From: a virus
Direction: 5' to 3' (one strand)
Length of the DNA: 64,000 nucleotides
Virus record (IMG/VR): IMGVR_UViG_3300022752_000022
Coordinates: 62,001 to 126,000 of that record
The notes beneath the pieces are model-generated. The model ran no database searches. It was not told the origin of the DNA and was given only the letters and a program-made list of their open reading frames with translations. Each line of letters begins with the position of its first letter. Position 1 is the first letter of the stretch. Positions 30,352 to 50,435 of this stretch are shown piece after piece. The position numbers and the translations under genes were made by a program.

Positions 30352-30426
30352 CCCGGATTAGCTCAGAGGTAGAGCAACGTCTTGATAAGGCGGAGGCGAA
30401 TGGATCGTTACCATTATTCGGGACCA
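30352..30426 (+). tRNA. tRNA-Ile (GAT)
   Basis: 75 bases with encoded CCA. Acceptor stem CCCGGAT/ATTCGGG, D-stem GCTC/GAGC, anticodon loop TTGATAA (anticodon 30384-30386), T-stem AATGG/CCATT. The T-loop is ATCGTTA, unusual in lacking the initial TT, and the outermost anticodon-stem pair is A-G. The CCA overlaps the first arm of the next RNA element. Confidence 0.85.
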
Positions 30427-30507
30427 TATTGAAGCACATTTTGATGCCTATAAGCAGTCAGAGTTGATCGCCTGTCTGACGGTGTGAGATGAATGTGCTT
30501 CAATATG
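30425..30507 (+). ncRNA. Structured RNA element A between tRNAs
   Basis: A perfect 16-bp stem joins 30425-30440 and 30492-30507, enclosing 51 bases with an inner hairpin (GTCAGA at 30457-30462 with TCTGAC at 30475-30480). No open reading frame of note. It shares its stem sequence with element B. A stable RNA of unknown function, comparable in position to the T4 stable RNAs in its tRNA cluster. Confidence 0.6.
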
Positions 30508-30568
30508 ATAAAGGTCGAGGTGCACCAGATCATTTCTAAAGGTCACTGACACATCGGAAAGACGATGG

Positions 30569-30693
30569 CCATATTGAAGCACATTTAATCGAAAGCATCC
30601 TCAGAACGGAAGTGACTCGCCGGTGAGTATGCAGGTAGAGAGGTGTAAAAAGCCCCCGCTTGTCACGGTTACCTCAAGTGTGTTTCAATATGG
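30569..30693 (+). ncRNA. Structured RNA element B between tRNAs
   Basis: The arm at 30569-30585 pairs with 30677-30693 over 17 bp. Compared with element A, the right arm has two changes (at 30678 and 30683), and both create G-U pairs, so RNA pairing is kept. The interior of about 90 bases has further potential helices (GTGAC 30612-30616 with GTCAC 30662-30666). A hairpin CATCG/CGATG lies just upstream at 30552-30567. Function unknown. Confidence 0.6.
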
Positions 30694-30700
30694 GAATTAT

Positions 30701-30776
30701 TCCGGTCGAGCAAGCTAGGTGTAGGCAGTGGACTGTTAATCCATGAAGCCTGGTTCGAATCCAGGGACCGGAGCCA
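30701..30776 (+). tRNA. tRNA-Asn (GTT)
   Basis: 76 bases with CCA. Acceptor TCCGGTC/GACCGGA, discriminator G, anticodon stem GTGGA/TCCAT with loop CTGTTAA (anticodon 30735-30737), T-arm CCTGG TTCGAAT CCAGG. All stems are good. Confidence 0.92.
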
Positions 30777-30783
30777 GATGTAT

Positions 30784-30861
30784 CTCGGATTAGTTCAGCC
30801 CGGTTAGAATGCCTGCTTTGGGAGCAGGAGGTCGTGAGTTCAAATCCCACATCCGAGACCA
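30784..30861 (+). tRNA. tRNA-Pro (TGG)
   Basis: 78 bases with CCA. Acceptor CTCGGAT/ATCCGAG, anticodon stem CCTGC/GCAGG with loop TTTGGGA (anticodon 30819-30821), T-arm with TTCAAAT loop. Starts 7 bases after tRNA-Asn. Confidence 0.92.
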
Positions 30862-30866
30862 GTTTT

Positions 30867-30940
30867 GCCCTCTTAGTTAAATGGCATAACGGTTGATTTG
30901 TAATCATCAATTGGCAGTTCGATTCTGTCAGAGGGCACCA
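30867..30940 (+). tRNA. tRNA-Thr (TGT)
   Basis: 74 bases with CCA. Acceptor GCCCTCT/AGAGGGC, anticodon loop TTTGTAA (anticodon 30899-30901), T-stem GGCAG/CTGTC. The anticodon stem has one T-T mismatch. Its 3' part shares 15 bases with the chimeric tRNA relic at 31600. Confidence 0.88.
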
Positions 30941-30947
30941 GTTTTAT

Positions 30948-31022
30948 CTGATCGTGGTGAAATGGAGATCACAGTAGCCTTCTAAGATTCTATTCCGGGT
31001 TCGAATCCTGGCGGTCAGGCCA
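30948..31022 (+). tRNA. tRNA-Arg (TCT), weak anticodon stem
   Basis: 75 bases with CCA. Acceptor CTGATCG/CGGTCAG, D-stem GTGA/TCAC and T-arm CCGGG TTCGAAT CCTGG are sound. The anticodon stem GTAGC/GATTC pairs at only three of five positions around loop CTTCTAA (anticodon 30981-30983), so it may be a decaying copy. A second, intact Arg-TCT tRNA lies at 32430. Confidence 0.75.
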
Positions 31023-31036
31023 GTAAGGAGATTAAC

Positions 31037-31600
31037 ATGCCAGCGACATGGCTTATTAGCGATACACATTTCGGGCATGACAAAACCTGTACTGTGTTCA
31101 AAAGAGACGATGGTTACCCTCTTAGGCCCTTTAAAGATGCCGAAGAGATGGACGAGGAAATGATTAAGCGTTGGAACGAACGTGTTGATAAGAATGACAA
31201 AGTATATCACTTGGGAGACGTAGTCATTGCTCGTAAAAGTCTTGCTACTCTTAGTAGACTTAACGGAGACAAAGTTCTTATTAAAGGTAACCATGATATC
31301 TTTAAACTTCATGATTACACCGTACACTTTAGAGATATCAGAGGTTATCATGTGATGTCTGGTCTTATTCTTAGTCACGTTCCAGTACATGCTGATTCCA
31401 TCGAAAGATTTGGGTGCAATGTTCATGGACATCTTCACCATAGAAGAGTGATGAAAGATAATAAGATTGATCCGAGATACTTTAATGTGAGTGTAGAGTG
31501 TATCGACTTTGCTCCTATTCTTCTTGAAGATCTGAAGAAAAGAATTATGGAGCAGGGTGGGGGTGTCGAGATGAAAAAGTCTCGACACGAAGTAGATTAG
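31037..31600 (+). CDS. Calcineurin-like metallophosphoesterase
   Basis: 187 residues with ribosome site AAGGAGATTAAC. All family motifs are present: D9 and H11 in ISDTHFGHD, VYHLGDVV, KGNHD, ILSHVPVH and HGHLHHRR. Phosphodiesterase or phosphatase with two metals; the substrate is unknown. It sits inside the tRNA cluster, and its TAG stop ends on the first base of the tRNA relic. The 3' end encodes a perfect 8-bp hairpin (31563-31570 with 31581-31588) that could guide transcript processing. Confidence 0.82.
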   Translation: MPATWLISDTHFGHDKTCTVFKRDDGYPLRPFKDAEEMDEEMIKRWNERVDKNDKVYHLGDVVIARKSLATLSRLNGDKVLIKGNHDIFKLHDYTVHFRDIRGYHVMSGLILSHVPVHADSIERFGCNVHGHLHHRRVMKDNKIDPRYFNVSVECIDFAPILLEDLKKRIMEQGGGVEMKKSRHEVD

Positions 31601-31675
31601 CTGATGTAGATCAGTGGTAGATCGCTTTCTTGGTAAGAAAGAAGTCATGAGTTCGATTCTGTCAAGAGGTTACCA
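31600..31675 (+). pseudogene. Degenerate chimeric tRNA, Thr (GGT) anticodon arm
   Basis: 76 bases with CCA. The D-stem GATC/GATC and anticodon stem CTTTC/GAAAG around TTGGTAA (anticodon 31632-31634) are perfect. The acceptor arms (GCTGATG against AAGAGGT) pair at only about four of seven positions, and the T-stem (ATGAG against CTGTC) at two of five. The 3' half shares 15 bases with tRNA-Thr(TGT). It looks like a fusion of two tRNA halves and is probably nonfunctional. Confidence 0.65.
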
Positions 31676-31688
31676 AAAAGGAGTTTGT

Positions 31689-32225
31689 ATGAGACTTACT
31701 GATTTAATTAAAATATATGATAATGTTTTGAGTAAAGACTCTTGCAATAATATCATTGGGGAGTTTGAAGCAAGAAAAGAATTGGTAGATCATCATCATA
31801 ATGATGTTTACAAATTTGATCAATTAAACTTAAATCAGACTGATCTAAAACCTTTAGCGACAATTTTCATAAGGCAAATTATTCCGCTCATTAAATATTA
31901 TTCAGCGGAATTCAATGTTGATCGATTCATTAAAATGAATGCTTTTGAAGATGTTAGAATTAAAAAATACTTGAAGAATTCTGACTATCAATTTAAAACA
32001 CATATCGATAGTGCCGATAAAGAGTCTGCGGTACGATATTTGGTTTTCATTTTGTATTTGAATGATAACAACGGCAACACATTTTTTCCAACACTTGATT
32101 ACTCATGTAGACCAAAACAAGGAAGCATGATTTTGTTTCCACCTTTTTGGATGTATCCACATTCTGGTGTGATACCTACAGATAATGATAAGTATATTAT
32201 GATGAGCGCATTACATCATACATAA
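31689..32225 (+). CDS. 2-oxoglutarate/Fe(II)-dependent oxygenase
   Basis: 178 residues; ATG 31689 is chosen because AAAAAGGAGTTTGT precedes it, and upstream frames run through the tRNA relic. The prolyl-4-hydroxylase-like iron site is H105 and D107 in FKTHIDS and H158 in YPHSG, with K168 in place of the usual Arg/Lys that binds 2-oxoglutarate. VFILYLNDNNGNTFFP is the typical core strand. Such oxygenases are frequent in aquatic T4-like phages; the target is unknown. Confidence 0.8.
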   Translation: MRLTDLIKIYDNVLSKDSCNNIIGEFEARKELVDHHHNDVYKFDQLNLNQTDLKPLATIFIRQIIPLIKYYSAEFNVDRFIKMNAFEDVRIKKYLKNSDYQFKTHIDSADKESAVRYLVFILYLNDNNGNTFFPTLDYSCRPKQGSMILFPPFWMYPHSGVIPTDNDKYIMMSALHHT

Positions 32226-32230
32226 TTCTA

Positions 32231-32417
32231 TAGAATCCCCGGTCCTACGCCGGTTAGCGAGTGGGCGGTTAGACTTCCGTGAGTAGTCTAGGTTAGCCAT
32301 GCAACCTCCCTCCGGGCTTTTCATCCGGCAGGGTAAAAGATAATGGCAAAGTTGACCATCCTAAGATGGTACGGACAGGGTAACAACTCAATTCGGGGCT
32401 TATGGGAATAAGTAGCC
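32231..32417 (+). ncRNA. Structured RNA candidate C before tRNA-Arg
   Basis: About 190 GC-richer bases without an open frame but with many helices: CCCCG 32237-32241 with CGGGG 32394-32398 (closing), TAGAC/GTCTA (32270/32286), CCCTCCGG 32308-32315 with CCGGCAGGG 32325-32333, ACCATC-CTAA-GATGGT 32355-32370, and CTTAT-GGGA-ATAAG 32399-32412. I do not recognise a known RNA class; RNase P, SRP and group I signatures were looked for and not found. Confidence 0.5.
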
Positions 32418-32429
32418 GATCCTAATTTT

Positions 32430-32504
32430 ATCACCGTCGTTCAACGGAAAGGACATAGGTCTTCTAAACCTAGAATAGGGGTTCGACTCCTCTCGGTGGT
32501 GCCA
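32430..32504 (+). tRNA. tRNA-Arg (TCT)
   Basis: 75 bases with CCA. Acceptor ATCACCG/CGGTGGT (one T-G pair), D-stem GTTC/GGAC, anticodon stem TAGGT/ACCTA with loop CTTCTAA (anticodon 32463-32465), T-arm AGGGG TTCGACT CCTCT. Second Arg-TCT tRNA of the window and the better folded one; it reads AGA/AGG, frequent in this AT-rich phage. Confidence 0.9.
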
Positions 32505-45272: not shown

Positions 45273-45420
45273 TGCGAATCCTGATTTTGAAATAGCACAC
45301 TTGGGAATGACTTTAGGCGATCCTATTCGCTTAGGGTTGAGGAAGCCTGACGCTGGTTTCCGTGAAGTCTTACAGAAAGCAAAGGCTGCACATCCAAGAG
45401 GCAACATCAACACCTTCTAA
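45187..45420 (+). CDS. Conserved small T4-like protein (FmdB-like N-terminus)
   Basis: 77 residues with ribosome site TTAAAGGTTAAAC. PTYTFQHKTTGEIIERLMKI, GDPIRLGLRKPDAGFREVLQ and AAHPRGNINTF match a family common in aquatic T4-like phages. It lacks the zinc cysteines of FmdB. Unknown function. Confidence 0.65.
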   Translation: MPTYTFQHKTTGEIIERLMKISEQKDWLDANPDFEIAHLGMTLGDPIRLGLRKPDAGFREVLQKAKAAHPRGNINTF

Positions 45421-46100
45421 TGCGTAGCATCTATTTTGATCATGTAGGCGTTGACATTGATTACGAACTACAAACAAGACAAGTAGACGGGCGAAGATTT
45501 TATCTTACGCCTGAGGGCTATGCTTATCCGTCTGTTACAACAATTACATCGTTACATGGAAAAGAAGGGATTCTTGAATGGCGAAAACGTGTAGGTGAAG
45601 AAGAAGCAAATCGGATATCTACTCAAGCAGCAAGAAGAGGAACTCGCATTCATACCATATGTGAGAATTATCTGAAAAATGAAGAAGATTATATCAAAGG
45701 CCATATGCCATCATCTGTTGCATTGTTTAAGACTGTGCAACCAATTCTTGATGAACGGATCAATAATATTCATGCGATTGAAGTCCCACTATATTCTCAC
45801 CATCTAGAAGTTGCGGGCCGTGTAGACTGCATCGGTGAATTTGATGGTAAGTTATCTGTGATAGATTTCAAAACTTCAAGCAAACCAAAACAAGAAGATT
45901 GGATTGTCAACTATTTCATGCAATGCGCTGCATATGCTGTGATGTATGAAGAGCGTACCAAAATACCAGTTTCAAGACTTGCGGTTGTGATAGCAGTTGA
46001 AAATGATGAACCGCAAGTCTTTGTCAAAAAGCGGAATGATTACATCGAATTGTTTAGAGAATACAGGAAAAAATTTGAAGAGGCGACTCATACTTTTTAG
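45420..46100 (+). CDS. PD-(D/E)xK exonuclease (RecB/Cas4-like)
   Basis: 226 residues. YPSVTTITSLHGKEGILEWR is the typical opening. RRGTRIHTICENYL (GxxxH), EVPLYSHHLEVAGRVDCIGE (active-site Asp in GRVD) and LSVIDFKTSSKPKQEDWIVN (DxK) complete the catalytic core, with QCAAYAVMYEE as the QxxxY element. Probably processes DNA ends in recombination. One-base overlap with the upstream gene. Confidence 0.8.
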   Translation: MRSIYFDHVGVDIDYELQTRQVDGRRFYLTPEGYAYPSVTTITSLHGKEGILEWRKRVGEEEANRISTQAARRGTRIHTICENYLKNEEDYIKGHMPSSVALFKTVQPILDERINNIHAIEVPLYSHHLEVAGRVDCIGEFDGKLSVIDFKTSSKPKQEDWIVNYFMQCAAYAVMYEERTKIPVSRLAVVIAVENDEPQVFVKKRNDYIELFREYRKKFEEATHTF

Positions 46101-46743
46101 TGGCGGTGTTGAAAGCACAGCACTTCTCACGATAGCAGATAAAAAAGATTTGTTATTGATATGTGGTGTACCTAGAAAAAATTACACATACGGGCTAGAT
46201 TATGCTAAGTGTAAAAAAATAGCATCTGTATACGGAAATGAAATTATGGAATTTGATTTTCCCAATCAAATTGATGGATCTAAATGGACGAATCAATTGA
46301 TGTGGTTTGTATTTACATCATATCTAATTGTAGCATCAAGAGATGATATCAATGAAGTTTGGTGGGGAATGCATTATAACGAATCCCATAGAAATTTTAA
46401 TCATCCGATAGAAAGAAAAAAAAATTTTGAAAGAATCATGACAGCATGGTATACACTTCATCCAACAATTAAGTTTTGGGCGCCATTAGAATTTGAAACA
46501 AAGACGCAACAATGGCAAAGAATACCAGACGATGTGAAAAAGTATGTGAGCTGGTGCAATACAAATAACGATTGTGGTGTATGTAGAAAGTGCTTAGAAT
46601 TTAAGAAATATTGTGGCGATATACCAAAGAACCGACCTATCTTTGTACCGCCAAAAAAAGAATTGAAAGAAGTCCAACAATATAGTGATAGTAACGGAAA
46701 GAAATTTCTTTCAAATTTTTTAAACATAAAGGGGAATGCATGA
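46075..46743 (+). CDS. QueC-like PP-loop ATPase
   Basis: About 222 residues if started at TTG 46075 (AGGA 7 bases upstream); ATG 46036 is an alternative, and either overlaps the nuclease gene. The PP-loop is RRLILFSGGVESTALL. CNTNNDCGVCRKCLEF resembles the zinc site of QueC. QueC makes preQ0, the base for queuosine and 7-deazaguanine DNA modification. No other pathway gene is in the window, so it may work with host enzymes or have another substrate. Confidence 0.65.
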   Translation: MKRRLILFSGGVESTALLTIADKKDLLLICGVPRKNYTYGLDYAKCKKIASVYGNEIMEFDFPNQIDGSKWTNQLMWFVFTSYLIVASRDDINEVWWGMHYNESHRNFNHPIERKKNFERIMTAWYTLHPTIKFWAPLEFETKTQQWQRIPDDVKKYVSWCNTNNDCGVCRKCLEFKKYCGDIPKNRPIFVPPKKELKEVQQYSDSNGKKFLSNFLNIKGNA

Positions 46744-47093
46744 GTCAACAAATGGTTCACGATGTAGTAAGGTTTATTCAAGCGTGTGAGCAACTTCGCA
46801 CACCTAAAAATATAGAATTGTATGATAAACTAATTCATGAGGAATTTGAAGAATACATAGATGCAAAGAATGACGCAGAGAAATTGGATGCATGTATGGA
46901 CATGATTTGGGTGATTATTGGTTATTGTCATATGAAAGGTTGGAATGTAGAACGTGCATGGGAAGAAGTTGCAAGAAGTAATTTAGATAAGATTGATCCT
47001 GATACAGGATATGTTCTAAAAAATTCTGATGGTAAAGTGATGAAACCTAAGCATTGGAAAGCACCTGCACTTGAACAATTTGTTGAAGCATGA
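46740..47093 (+). CDS. mazG: MazG-like nucleotide pyrophosphohydrolase
   Basis: 117 residues, ATGA overlap. Metal-binding helices show IHEEFEEYIDAKND (EExxE) and EKLDACMDMIWVIIG (ExxD). RSNLDKIDPDTGYVLKNSDG follows. Phage MazG proteins hydrolyse dNTPs/NTPs or ppGpp-like nucleotides and are frequent in aquatic phages. The 3' end of the gene contains the promoter for the tmRNA. Confidence 0.82.
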   Translation: MSQQMVHDVVRFIQACEQLRTPKNIELYDKLIHEEFEEYIDAKNDAEKLDACMDMIWVIIGYCHMKGWNVERAWEEVARSNLDKIDPDTGYVLKNSDGKVMKPKHWKAPALEQFVEA

Positions 47094-47099
47094 TATAAT
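47071..47099 (+). promoter_or_regulatory. Promoter region of the tmRNA
   Basis: TTGAAC at 47071-47076, a 17-base spacer and a perfect TATAAT at 47094-47099, inside and just after the mazG end. A CTAAATAA late-like box follows at 47102-47109. Both would start transcription at about 47106-47115, where the first tmRNA helix begins. Confidence 0.65.
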
Positions 47100-47109
47100 C
47101 ACTAAATAA

Positions 47110-47465
47110 AATATTGTTGTATGAAGTTGAAGGAAACATGTTGCGGACGGCGGTTCAAATCCGCCCAGGTCCACCAAAAGCATGGCAGCGAAAGACGCCT
47201 AACCAGCGACCCTACCTACAAGGGAGAATACGGTGAATGATCAATTGTTGTGGTGACGATTGTATGTGTTCACGCCGCAGTAGGATGCTTTTGATGGGCC
47301 TGTACTGGTTTCGACGGAGCAAAGAGTACGGAAATGGACAACACGACAGGCGAAGGACGTAATCCTAGCAAAACGTTAAACGCAAACGACGAAAGATTTG
47401 CATTAGCCGCCTAAACACGGCTTAGGGTTTCGGTGAGTTTCCTCGTAACAGAATAACTCACCACA
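47110..47465 (+). ncRNA. ssrA: Circularly permuted (two-piece) tmRNA
   Basis: The acceptor piece comes first: T-arm GGCGG TTCAAAT CCGCC (47149-47165), acceptor strand CAGGTCC (47166-47172), discriminator A and CCA (47174-47176). The coding piece begins at 47296 with GGGCCTG, which pairs fully with CAGGTCC (one G-U), followed by the tmRNA signature TGGTTTCGACGG. The tag frame at 47382-47411 reads ANDERFALAA then TAA (47412-47414). CCTAA/TTAGG around the stop and an 8-bp hairpin (47432-47439 with 47455-47462) follow. ACAACA 47338-47343 pairs with TGTTGT 47115-47120 (helix 2). The intervening segment 47177-47295 closes by AAAAGCAT/ATGCTTTT. tmRNA rescues stalled ribosomes and tags peptides for proteolysis. 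Confidence 0.93.
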
Positions 47466-47493
47466 CACTCACACACATTTAAAGGAGACTATT

Positions 47494-47730
47494 ATGAGTG
47501 ATACGGCGTTTGGTATACGATTAGAAATTCTCAAAATGGCAAAAGATATAGTTGATCATGACTATTTTACAATGAGAGATTTTGAACAACAAATTTGGAA
47601 TACTAAAGCAGATGATGCTAGAGCAAAAGGCAAAGAAATACCACCATTTACTTTTACACCATATCCATCTGTTGATACTATCATAGCAAAAGCAAAAGAA
47701 CTTAATCGTTTTATTAGTGAAAGACAGTGA
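47494..47730 (+). CDS. Conserved small phage protein after the tmRNA
   Basis: 78 residues with ribosome site [54 protein letters not shown] helical pattern known from T4-like phages; function unknown. Overlaps the gmd frame slightly. Confidence 0.6.
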
Positions 47731-47735
47731 ATTTG

Positions 47736-48734
47736 ATGAAAGCATTTATTACTGGTATCACGGGGCAAGATGGCTCTTACTTAGCGGAACTTCTTTTGTC
47801 TAAAGGTTACGATGTGCATGGGCTTGTTAGACGCACTAGTACATATAATCTTCAAAACATTGAACATATTAAATCACAATTAAATCTTCATTACGGAGAT
47901 TTATCAGACGCATCAAATGTACACAATATCATTATGGACATTAAACCAAATGAAGTGTATAATCTCGGTGCACAATCACATGTTTCGGTTAGTTTTAAAT
48001 CACCTGCATATACTGCTGACGCAAATGGTGTTGGTGTTCTTCATATGCTTGAAGCTGTTAGAAAACTATCTGAACATCAAATCTGCAAATTCTATCAAGC
48101 ATCAACAAGTGAACTCTTTGGCAAAGTTCAACAAGTTCCACAAACAGAAAGCACACCGTTTTATCCACGAAGCCCTTATGCTGTAGCGAAACTATACGGC
48201 TACTGGATCACAGTCAACTATCGTGAAAGTTATAATTTATTTGCTTGTAACGGTATTCTATTCAATCACGAAAGTCCACGAAGAGGTGTAGATTTTGTTA
48301 CGAGAAAAATCACACATGGTTTAGTGAGAGCAATTCGTGGTGAAGGCCCAGTTCAATTAGGCAATCTAGATGCGAGACGAGATTGGGGCCATGCAAAAGA
48401 TTTTGTAAAAGCAATGTGGCTTATGCTTCAACAAACAAGAGCGGATGATTATGTGATTGCAACCGGTGTTCAACAAAGTGTCCGTGATTTCTGTGAAGTT
48501 GCCGCTAAGATTTTAGGAAAAGAAATTATTTGGACTGGCGTTGGATCATCCGAAAAAGGCATAGATAGATTAACTGGCAATGTTCTTATTGAAGTATCAG
48601 AAAAATTCTATAGACCAGCTGAAGTGAATACTTTATTAGGCAATTCAATGAAAGCAAGATCAGTTTTACAATGGAAACCTGAATATACATTTTATGATTT
48701 AGTGAAAGAAATGGTCATGGAGGACATGAAATGA
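47736..48734 (+). CDS. gmd: GDP-mannose 4,6-dehydratase
   Basis: 332 residues from ATG 47736 (GTG 47727 is an alternative). NAD(P)-binding [37 protein letters not shown], the catalytic [12 protein letters not shown] (YxxxK), and [16 protein letters not shown] are diagnostic. It makes GDP-4-keto-6-deoxymannose, precursor of fucose, rhamnose and perosamine-type sugars. First gene of a glycan cluster; ATGA overlap with the next gene. Confidence 0.92.
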
Positions 48735-49210
48735 ATTATGTATATGAAAGTCCGGATAAAGGCAAAACAATTTATCAAAGAGAATTTGGTTCAAATGAAA
48801 AAATTTTAATATCAAAGGAAAAATCTTCAATGATTTATGTGCCGATTAGCTTAGGGGAATTGATTGACAAACTCACCATTCTTCAGATAAAATTACAGCA
48901 GATTGATGATTCTGAAAAATTGAAGAATGTAAAGAATGAATGGGATCTTTTATCTAAACTTCCTGAGTACAGAGATGTTGCATATGAAATTGCACCATAT
49001 TTTACTGAGCTTTATAACATTAATATGGAACTTTGGGAGATTGAAGATGAAATTCGTGAGCATGAACTAAATCATGTTTTTGATTTCAAATTTATTCGTT
49101 TGGCTAGAAAAGTATATACGACAAATGATAAACGTGCAGCAATTAAAAAAGAAATCAATCTAAAATATGGATCAAAAATTATAGAAGAAAAATCTTATAA
49201 GGAATATTGA
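48731..49210 (+). CDS. DUF6165-like protein with an extra N-terminal module
   Basis: 159 residues. Residues about 1-33 ([19 protein letters not shown]) look like a separate small phage protein. From about 34 onward, [20 protein letters not shown] and [15 protein letters not shown] match a family found in surface-polysaccharide clusters (DUF6165-like). The fusion is in frame with no frameshift. Function unknown. Confidence 0.55.
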
Positions 49211-49211
49211 T

Positions 49212-50435
49212 ATGGCAAAATTAGTAAGTATGGGCGAACACTACGTAAGTGATTTCGTAAAGAGCGAAGAAGATACAAAAAATCGTTCCAGATACAGTTT
49301 AGATTTATGGTTAGATGGTACGCTAGGCGCCGTACGACTGCATGATTTAGCGCCGCACGATTCTATGTGGGGTCAGTATTGGTATAGAAGTGGTATCAAT
49401 TCTAGTATGAAAGCTGAACTGAATAGAATCGTCGGTGAAATTCTTCAGCGAATGAATCTTGAAAAAGATGATATTTGGTTAGATATTGCATGTAATGACG
49501 GCACACTTTTGAGTTATGTGCCACCTTATGTGAAACGAGTCGGCATTGATCCTTGCAATGATGAATATCTAAAAGAATCGAAACTACATGGTGAAATTGT
49601 TCAAGATTACTTTTCAAAAAATGCGTGGAATAAAACGACTGTCGCACATAAGAAAGCAAAAGTCATTACGTGTATTGCAATGTTTTATGATTTAGATGAT
49701 CCGAAACCATTCGTACAAGATATGTACGATATTTTGGATGATGATGGTGTTATCGTTCTTCAGATGAGTTACACACCATTGATGCTCAAACAAATGGCTT
49801 TTGATAATATTTGCCACGAGCATGTATATTATTATGATCTTACATCATTGCTTGGTTTGTTTGGCAGAGTTGGATTTAGATGTGTTGATTGTTCTTTGAA
49901 CGACACTAACGGCGGTAGTTTTAGAATTTATTTCAGAAAAGAGAAAGCAAATCCAGCGAAGTTTGGTTCAGCACCTTTGCGTGACGTATGTGAAACACGA
50001 GTCGCAAGTATTTTAGCATATGAGGGTAACGTTCTGAATATTCGCAAAGCAAGTGTATGGGATAACTTTGAAAAGCGCCTTAAGATTATGAAGCGTGATT
50101 TAACTAAACTCATTAAAGACATCAAAGCAGAAGGCAAAACAATCTACGGCTACGGCGCAAGTACAAAGGGTAATACATTACTTCAATACTTTGGATTGAC
50201 TGCAAACGAAATTACGGCCATTGCTGAACGAAGCCCATATAAGTTTGGATTGAAAACGATTGGCACACATATTCCTATTGTGAGTGAAGAAGAAATGCGG
50301 GCAGCAAAGCCTGATTATCTTTTGGTGCTACCCTGGCATTTCATTGACGAATTTTTAAATCGTGAACAAGAATATCTCAATGCTGGAGGAAAAATGATTG
50401 TTCCGTGTCCGGAAGTTAAAATATATGGAAATTAA
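49212..50435 (+). CDS. Sugar C-methyltransferase-like SAM enzyme
   Basis: 407 residues. SAM-binding core IWLDIACNDGTLLSYVPPYV and VGIDPC; FDNICHEHVYYYDLTSLLGL is the conserved active-site region of nucleotide-sugar C-methyltransferases. The C-terminal domain IYGYGASTKGNTLLQYFGL and LPWHFIDEFLNREQEYLNAG is also typical. The usual N-terminal zinc domain is missing. Probably methylates a keto-deoxysugar made downstream of Gmd. Confidence 0.78.
   Translation: MAKLVSMGEHYVSDFVKSEEDTKNRSRYSLDLWLDGTLGAVRLHDLAPHDSMWGQYWYRSGINSSMKAELNRIVGEILQRMNLEKDDIWLDIACNDGTLLSYVPPYVKRVGIDPCNDEYLKESKLHGEIVQDYFSKNAWNKTTVAHKKAKVITCIAMFYDLDDPKPFVQDMYDILDDDGVIVLQMSYTPLMLKQMAFDNICHEHVYYYDLTSLLGLFGRVGFRCVDCSLNDTNGGSFRIYFRKEKANPAKFGSAPLRDVCETRVASILAYEGNVLNIRKASVWDNFEKRLKIMKRDLTKLIKDIKAEGKTIYGYGASTKGNTLLQYFGLTANEITAIAERSPYKFGLKTIGTHIPIVSEEEMRAAKPDYLLVLPWHFIDEFLNREQEYLNAGGKMIVPCPEVKIYGN

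Follow-up and report, generated by a model that had tools for sequence, protein, structure and literature searches.

The locus studied here is a circularly permuted tmRNA gene on the forward strand, at about positions 47115-47462 of the window, the 64,000-nucleotide stretch that was analysed from an IMG/VR virus record of 149,598 bases (G000). ARAGORN reports it as a permuted tmRNA (tmRNA*), and two Rfam covariance models agree with this call: RF01850 beta_tmRNA matches positions 47069-47471 with 132 bits (E 5e-40; cut-off 84 bits), and RF04321 tmRNA_permuted matches positions 47115-47414 with 131 bits (E 2e-25; cut-off 47 bits). Both matches lie far over their cut-offs and bear out the permuted tmRNA proposed in the initial annotation; the tag peptide that it had read, ANDERFALAA, is confirmed as well. 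The acceptor half comes first in the gene, followed by a 119-nt intervening segment (IVS) and then by the coding half (Table 1).

Table 1. Features of the tmRNA locus, in positions of the window.
Feature	Positions	Strand	Remarks
Exonuclease, phrog_298	45420-46100	+	PDDEXK nuclease in Melnitz; marks the tmRNA locus in related phages and Melnitz
MazG-like nucleotide pyrophosphohydrolase	46740-47093	+	Directly upstream; 3' end overlaps the -35 box
Sigma-70-like promoter, TTGAAC-N17-TATAAT	47071-47099	+	Extended -10 TG; 10 of 12 matches
tmRNA acceptor half	47115-47176	+	5' end approximate; sequence, ARAGORN, Rfam
T-arm of acceptor half	47149-47165	+	
Acceptor-stem 3' strand, CAGGTCC	47166-47172	+	Followed by a single A
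Encoded CCA	47174-47176	+	
IVS, 119 nt	47177-47295	+	Better conserved than both tmRNA halves
Inner RNA, conserved and structured	47178-47290	+	Multi-branched, pseudoknotted; no Rfam match
P1, closes inner RNA	47178-47183/47285-47290	+	
P2	47196-47208	+	
P3	47210-47224	+	
Pseudoknot	47215-47219/47280-47284	+	
P4 arm	47231-47277	+	Terminal loop UGUGGUG at 47249-47255
tmRNA coding half	47296-47462	+	3' end approximate; sequence, ARAGORN, Rfam
Acceptor-stem 5' strand, GGGCCTG	47296-47302	+	GGTTTCGAC comes next in the coding half
Tag frame, GCA...TAA	47382-47414	+	ANDERFALAA and TAA stop; sequence, ARAGORN
3' hairpin of coding half	47432-47462	+	
78-aa protein	47494-47730	+	Directly follows the tmRNA; good ribosome-binding site

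The two strands of the 7-bp acceptor stem reside on separate halves of the molecule, and helix 2 can form between UGUUGU (47115-47120) and ACAACA (47338-47343). The third pair of the acceptor stem is a G-U pair (G47298 with U47170). This G3-U70 pair is the alanine identity pair of tRNA-Ala, and it is present in every one of 49 distinct phage permuted tmRNAs. Position 55 of the T-loop and position 18 of the D-loop occur in two combinations in the same set, T55-G18 in 40 molecules and G55-A18 in 9, with no mixed combination; a T-loop TTC is accompanied by a D-loop GG and a T-loop TGC by a D-loop AG (40:9, exceptionless; e.g., L144, L161, L151 and L281). As judged from these sequences, the 18-55 tertiary contact covaries in phage permuted tmRNAs.

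The promoter claimed directly upstream of the gene, with its extended -10 TG, proved credible. Promoter scores equal to or higher than that of the window were found just upstream of 13 of the 49 distinct phage permuted tmRNAs, compared with 1.0% of shuffled windows, and scores of at least 11.5 in 10 of the 49, compared with 0.06%. The initial annotation had suggested that the tmRNA may serve translation late in infection; the tmRNA promoter looks host-type rather than T4-late. L144/L145 differ from the other relatives and their host-type promoters in carrying TATAAATA, the T4 late promoter consensus, upstream of a stand-alone copy of the inner RNA and the tmRNA. No terminator was found between the tmRNA and the gene of the 78-aa protein. 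A QueC-like gene (45997-46743) precedes the tmRNA, and genes for a GDP-mannose 4,6-dehydratase (47727-48734), a DUF6165 protein and a C-methyltransferase follow it within 47727-50435, a set of flanking genes that suggests nucleoside and sugar modification functions. Elsewhere in the window, near the phage tRNA cluster at 30352-32504, positions 31600-31670 gave a weak tRNA match in Rfam (32.8 bits) and no ARAGORN call.

The record encodes a terminase, a portal (phrog_213), a major head protein (phrog_138), a tail sheath, a DNA polymerase and a recombination nuclease, and is therefore assigned to a T4-like myovirus. At the protein level the nearest deposited relatives share only about 48-55% identity with it, one gene being closest to those of a Stenotrophomonas phage and Melnitz and another to those of cyanophages, and no DNA similarity to deposited phages was detectable over the stretches tested. 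The Rfam models and this gene content together support the proposed beta-type permuted tmRNA in a T4-like phage. SmpB is absent from the phage record, so tmRNA function would need the SmpB of the host. A betaproteobacterial host group is plausible, judged only by the Rfam model and the tag; a scan of GTDB genomes with an exact 20-mer of the coding half found no betaproteobacterial host.

Permuted tmRNAs are established in this T4-like group of phages. Melnitz, a Methylophilales phage, carries a two-piece ssrA, and two-piece tmRNAs of deposited phages were reported in 2022, when the Melnitz authors counted 53 of them among 133 distinct tmRNA structures (PMC9004378). A permuted tmRNA also occurs in 40 of the 80 IMG/VR loci with a gene related to the upstream exonuclease, where both alpha-type and beta-type tmRNAs are found, and the same kind of nuclease lies upstream of ssrA in Melnitz. 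The published forms (PMC9004378) and the loci in IMG/VR contradict the suggestion that permuted tmRNAs are rare in T4-type phages, and rarity is consequently no point of interest here.

What appears to be new is the content between the tmRNA halves and not the permuted tmRNA itself. The initial annotation had seen in the IVS a fold-back for processing; the closing stem beside the CCA (AAAAGCAT/ATGCTTTT) does exist, but the segment that it encloses is more than a processing spacer, being an independent conserved RNA that had been missed. After P1, GAAAGACG runs into a short hairpin with the loop UAACCA, the third pair of which is C-G, G-C, A-U, U-A or U-G according to lineage. The next hairpin, CCC(C/U)/(G/A)GGG, forms the pseudoknot with its loop. 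In all seven lineages one strand of this pseudoknot directly abuts the 3' strand of P1, although both helices vary in sequence: the pseudoknot strands are CCUAC/GUAGG in the window, UCUACAA/UUGUAGA in L144, CUGUGU/ACACAG in L309, GCCGAC/GUCGGC in L310, ACCACAC/GUGUGGU in L311 and AUGCCG/CGGCAU in L315. The loop UGUGGUG of the longer arm, judged by eye, is kept in most lineages.

The single-sequence fold of the IVS in the window was no better than that of shuffles (z -0.8), so that the structural case rests on comparison. Over six compact sequences the 33 pairs of the structure were 98% paired, and 10 of the 33 pairs had changed on both sides, in a structure drawn partly from the same sequences that were used for these counts. 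None of 500 shuffles matched the pair-preserving signal, and slid versions of the structure gave at most one such pair. Pair-preserving changes in independent sequences thus indicate that the inner RNA is a structured RNA family.

The same RNA fills the IVS of L095, L078, L287 (with five near-identical contigs) and L312. In all ten pairs among the window and these four relatives, the identity of the IVS exceeded that of either tmRNA half; between the window and L287, for example, it was 93% for the IVS, 82% for the acceptor half and 57% for the coding half. Recent module-like spread between phages could raise the identity of the IVS without constraint; the pair-preserving changes argue for selection on the structure of the inner RNA despite this possibility. 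The RNA also occurs outside tmRNA genes. It stands alone in L144/L145, just upstream of a tmRNA whose own IVS measures only 46 nt, and it is found in L309, L310, L311 and L315, contigs of unrelated phages, with no tmRNA on the contig stretch examined. Away from the tmRNA, copies were seen following a tRNA-Ser gene, preceding a terminase gene and among other phage genes. All of the roughly nine distinct forms known come from metagenome contigs, with no deposited phage among their sources, and searches of IMG/VR with further degenerate patterns yielded only one additional form, that of L315.

Searches elsewhere returned no further copies: the inner RNA was not found in deposited phages, nor the L311 form in plasmids, nor a second copy in this phage with a model of the 5' core, nor any copy in 794 cellular genomes of two phyla, where the 5'-core model was run without a positive control. 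The 4227 covariance models of Rfam 15 gave no match to the IVS of the window up to E 10, a result on which a known riboswitch or ribozyme was rejected as the inner RNA, and the element in L309-L312 had no match up to E 0.5 besides the surrounding tmRNA. Two other candidates were discarded. An open reading frame in the IVS of the window (ATG 47236, MINCCGDDC...) covers too little of the segment, and its ATG is missing in L078 and L287. The UGUGGUG loop of the window could pair with CACCACA, which lies at the coding half's 3' end, but this complementarity is unconserved in relatives. That the UGGU of the loop touches tRNA-type ACCA ends is only a lead, given that L144 has UGUAGUG.

Across phage permuted tmRNAs the IVS ranges from 3 to 186 nt and its content is very variable, whereas most begin with AAAAGCA or similar and end with TGCTTTTGAT or similar, forming a stem that adjoins both cut sites. 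These two patterns are what would be expected if the gene were an ordinary phage permuted tmRNA and its IVS a folded spacer that joins the halves for RNase P and 3'-end processing, with a sequence that matters for folding only. We consider this unlikely, since the inner RNA keeps the unpaired GAAAGACG, UAACCA and UGUGGUG together with a pseudoknot, is better conserved than the tmRNA halves and is present outside tmRNA genes.

Longer segments in other phages hold small open reading frames (ORFs). No ORF fills any IVS from 100 up to 136 nt, while an ATG frame fills most of the IVS in five of the seven segments of at least 136 nt (Melnitz, L082, L163, L128 and L076), four of these five frames being preceded by a Shine-Dalgarno-like sequence. 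Shuffles reached equal ORF coverage in 0.2-3.2% of cases, and never with a Shine-Dalgarno-like site. The product of the L076 frame aligns with the C-terminal portion of phrog_4098 (E 4.6e-11), and the frame of Melnitz (MZ577097.1, L314:1584) comprises 54 codons and is unannotated. Small ORFs are also seen in the IVS of L131/L208/L209, which group with L128. The 136-nt IVS of L059 has an open frame that lacks a start codon (KSTKTGIPYEKLNSKGISWIRTDRHTSKNNLKGLHIDVLC) and matches nothing in Pfam and PHROG, and may perhaps be a gene remnant. L056 and L180/L184/L185/L187 share another IVS sequence of 117 nt, despite acceptor stems of GGGGATG and GGGCCTG, which is perhaps another structured RNA. A tRNA-like T-loop (GGTTCGAATCC, GGTTCGATC) occurs in the IVS of L127/L207 (82 nt) and L071 (104 nt), and could be the remnant of a tRNA located between the two halves.

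This diversity of inserts in the slot is in keeping with a second alternative, which takes the inner RNA for a selfish or mobile element that has the tmRNA gap as a harmless landing site. The same element is found inside the tmRNA, just upstream of it (L144) and in unrelated contexts, and it is shared by phages whose tmRNA coding halves are only 49-68% identical in most pairs, all of which would suit such an element. However, no open frame fills the inner RNA, no transposase was seen alongside, the genome of this phage has only one copy of the RNA, and the copies away from the tmRNA sit between ordinary phage genes; we therefore regard a mobile element as quite improbable. A cis-acting, riboswitch-like element that regulates how the tmRNA matures or how genes downstream are expressed is the least probable explanation and highly doubtful, for although the fold is compact and aptamer-like with a pseudoknot, and riboswitch-like elements do occur in T4-like phages (a glutamine riboswitch lies just downstream of the tmRNA of Melnitz), no terminator is present nearby and the copies away from the tmRNA have no obvious common downstream gene.

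Comparison with known systems, made through the Rfam models, places the tmRNA closest to the betaproteobacterial permuted tmRNAs (RF01850/RF04321), with which it shares the order of the halves, the G3-U70 acceptor stem, the T-arm, the encoded CCA, GGUUUCGAC, an ANDxxFALAA-type tag and helix 2. Unlike these, it is encoded by a T4-like phage that lacks SmpB, it leaves the last helix of RF01850 unmatched, and its IVS is a conserved pseudoknotted RNA. The two-piece ssrA of Melnitz is likewise permuted, belongs to a T4-like phage, lies downstream of the same exonuclease and has IVS cargo of its own (PMC9004378), but it is alpha-type according to Rfam and its IVS carries an ORF, whereas the tmRNA of the window is beta-type and its IVS carries a structured RNA. 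Structured RNAs are also known from T4-like cyanophages, where the manA and wcaG motifs often lie near sugar genes (PMC2864571). The locus of the window resembles these in having a sugar gene downstream, that of the GDP-mannose 4,6-dehydratase, but the inner RNA matches neither Rfam model and sits in a tmRNA gene instead of a 5' UTR.

Beyond the anatomy of the gene, the conservation and covariation of both RNAs, the conserved locus and the absence of SmpB from the record, we infer how the gene would be transcribed and cleaved, how the tmRNA would act, and how the inner RNA would be released and used. In our judgement the gene rather likely encodes a functional phage tmRNA with an IVS that serves as a cargo slot, which here frees a separate structured small RNA in processing. 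The phage would make its own two-piece tmRNA from a precursor of acceptor half, IVS and coding half, transcribed from the host-type promoter. Host RNase P would generate the 5' end of the coding half at G47296 and 3'-end nucleases would trim the acceptor half back to the CCA that ends at 47176, leaving two halves that base pairing in the acceptor stem and in helix 2 keeps together. Host AlaRS would then charge the tmRNA with alanine, and together with host SmpB it would rescue stalled ribosomes and tag their products with ANDERFALAA. The same two cuts would free the 119-nt pseudoknotted RNA with a function of its own, most likely that of a trans-acting phage small RNA, which fits its occurrence outside tmRNA genes.

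Phage tmRNAs are known, and the usual view of the IVS in permuted tmRNA genes is that of a discarded spacer. Here the IVS is the best-conserved part of the tmRNA gene and a member of an RNA family outside Rfam, and in other phages small ORFs are hidden by annotation beneath the tmRNA feature. Whether phage permuted tmRNA genes in general use their gap as a cargo slot, with an unlisted pseudoknotted RNA family here and complete small protein genes in other phages that are co-transcribed with the tmRNA and freed by its maturation enzymes, is in our view evenly balanced. The RNAs and ORFs described here form a short, defined list for phage-infection tests. If this proposal is true, one precursor would give rise to three stable products.
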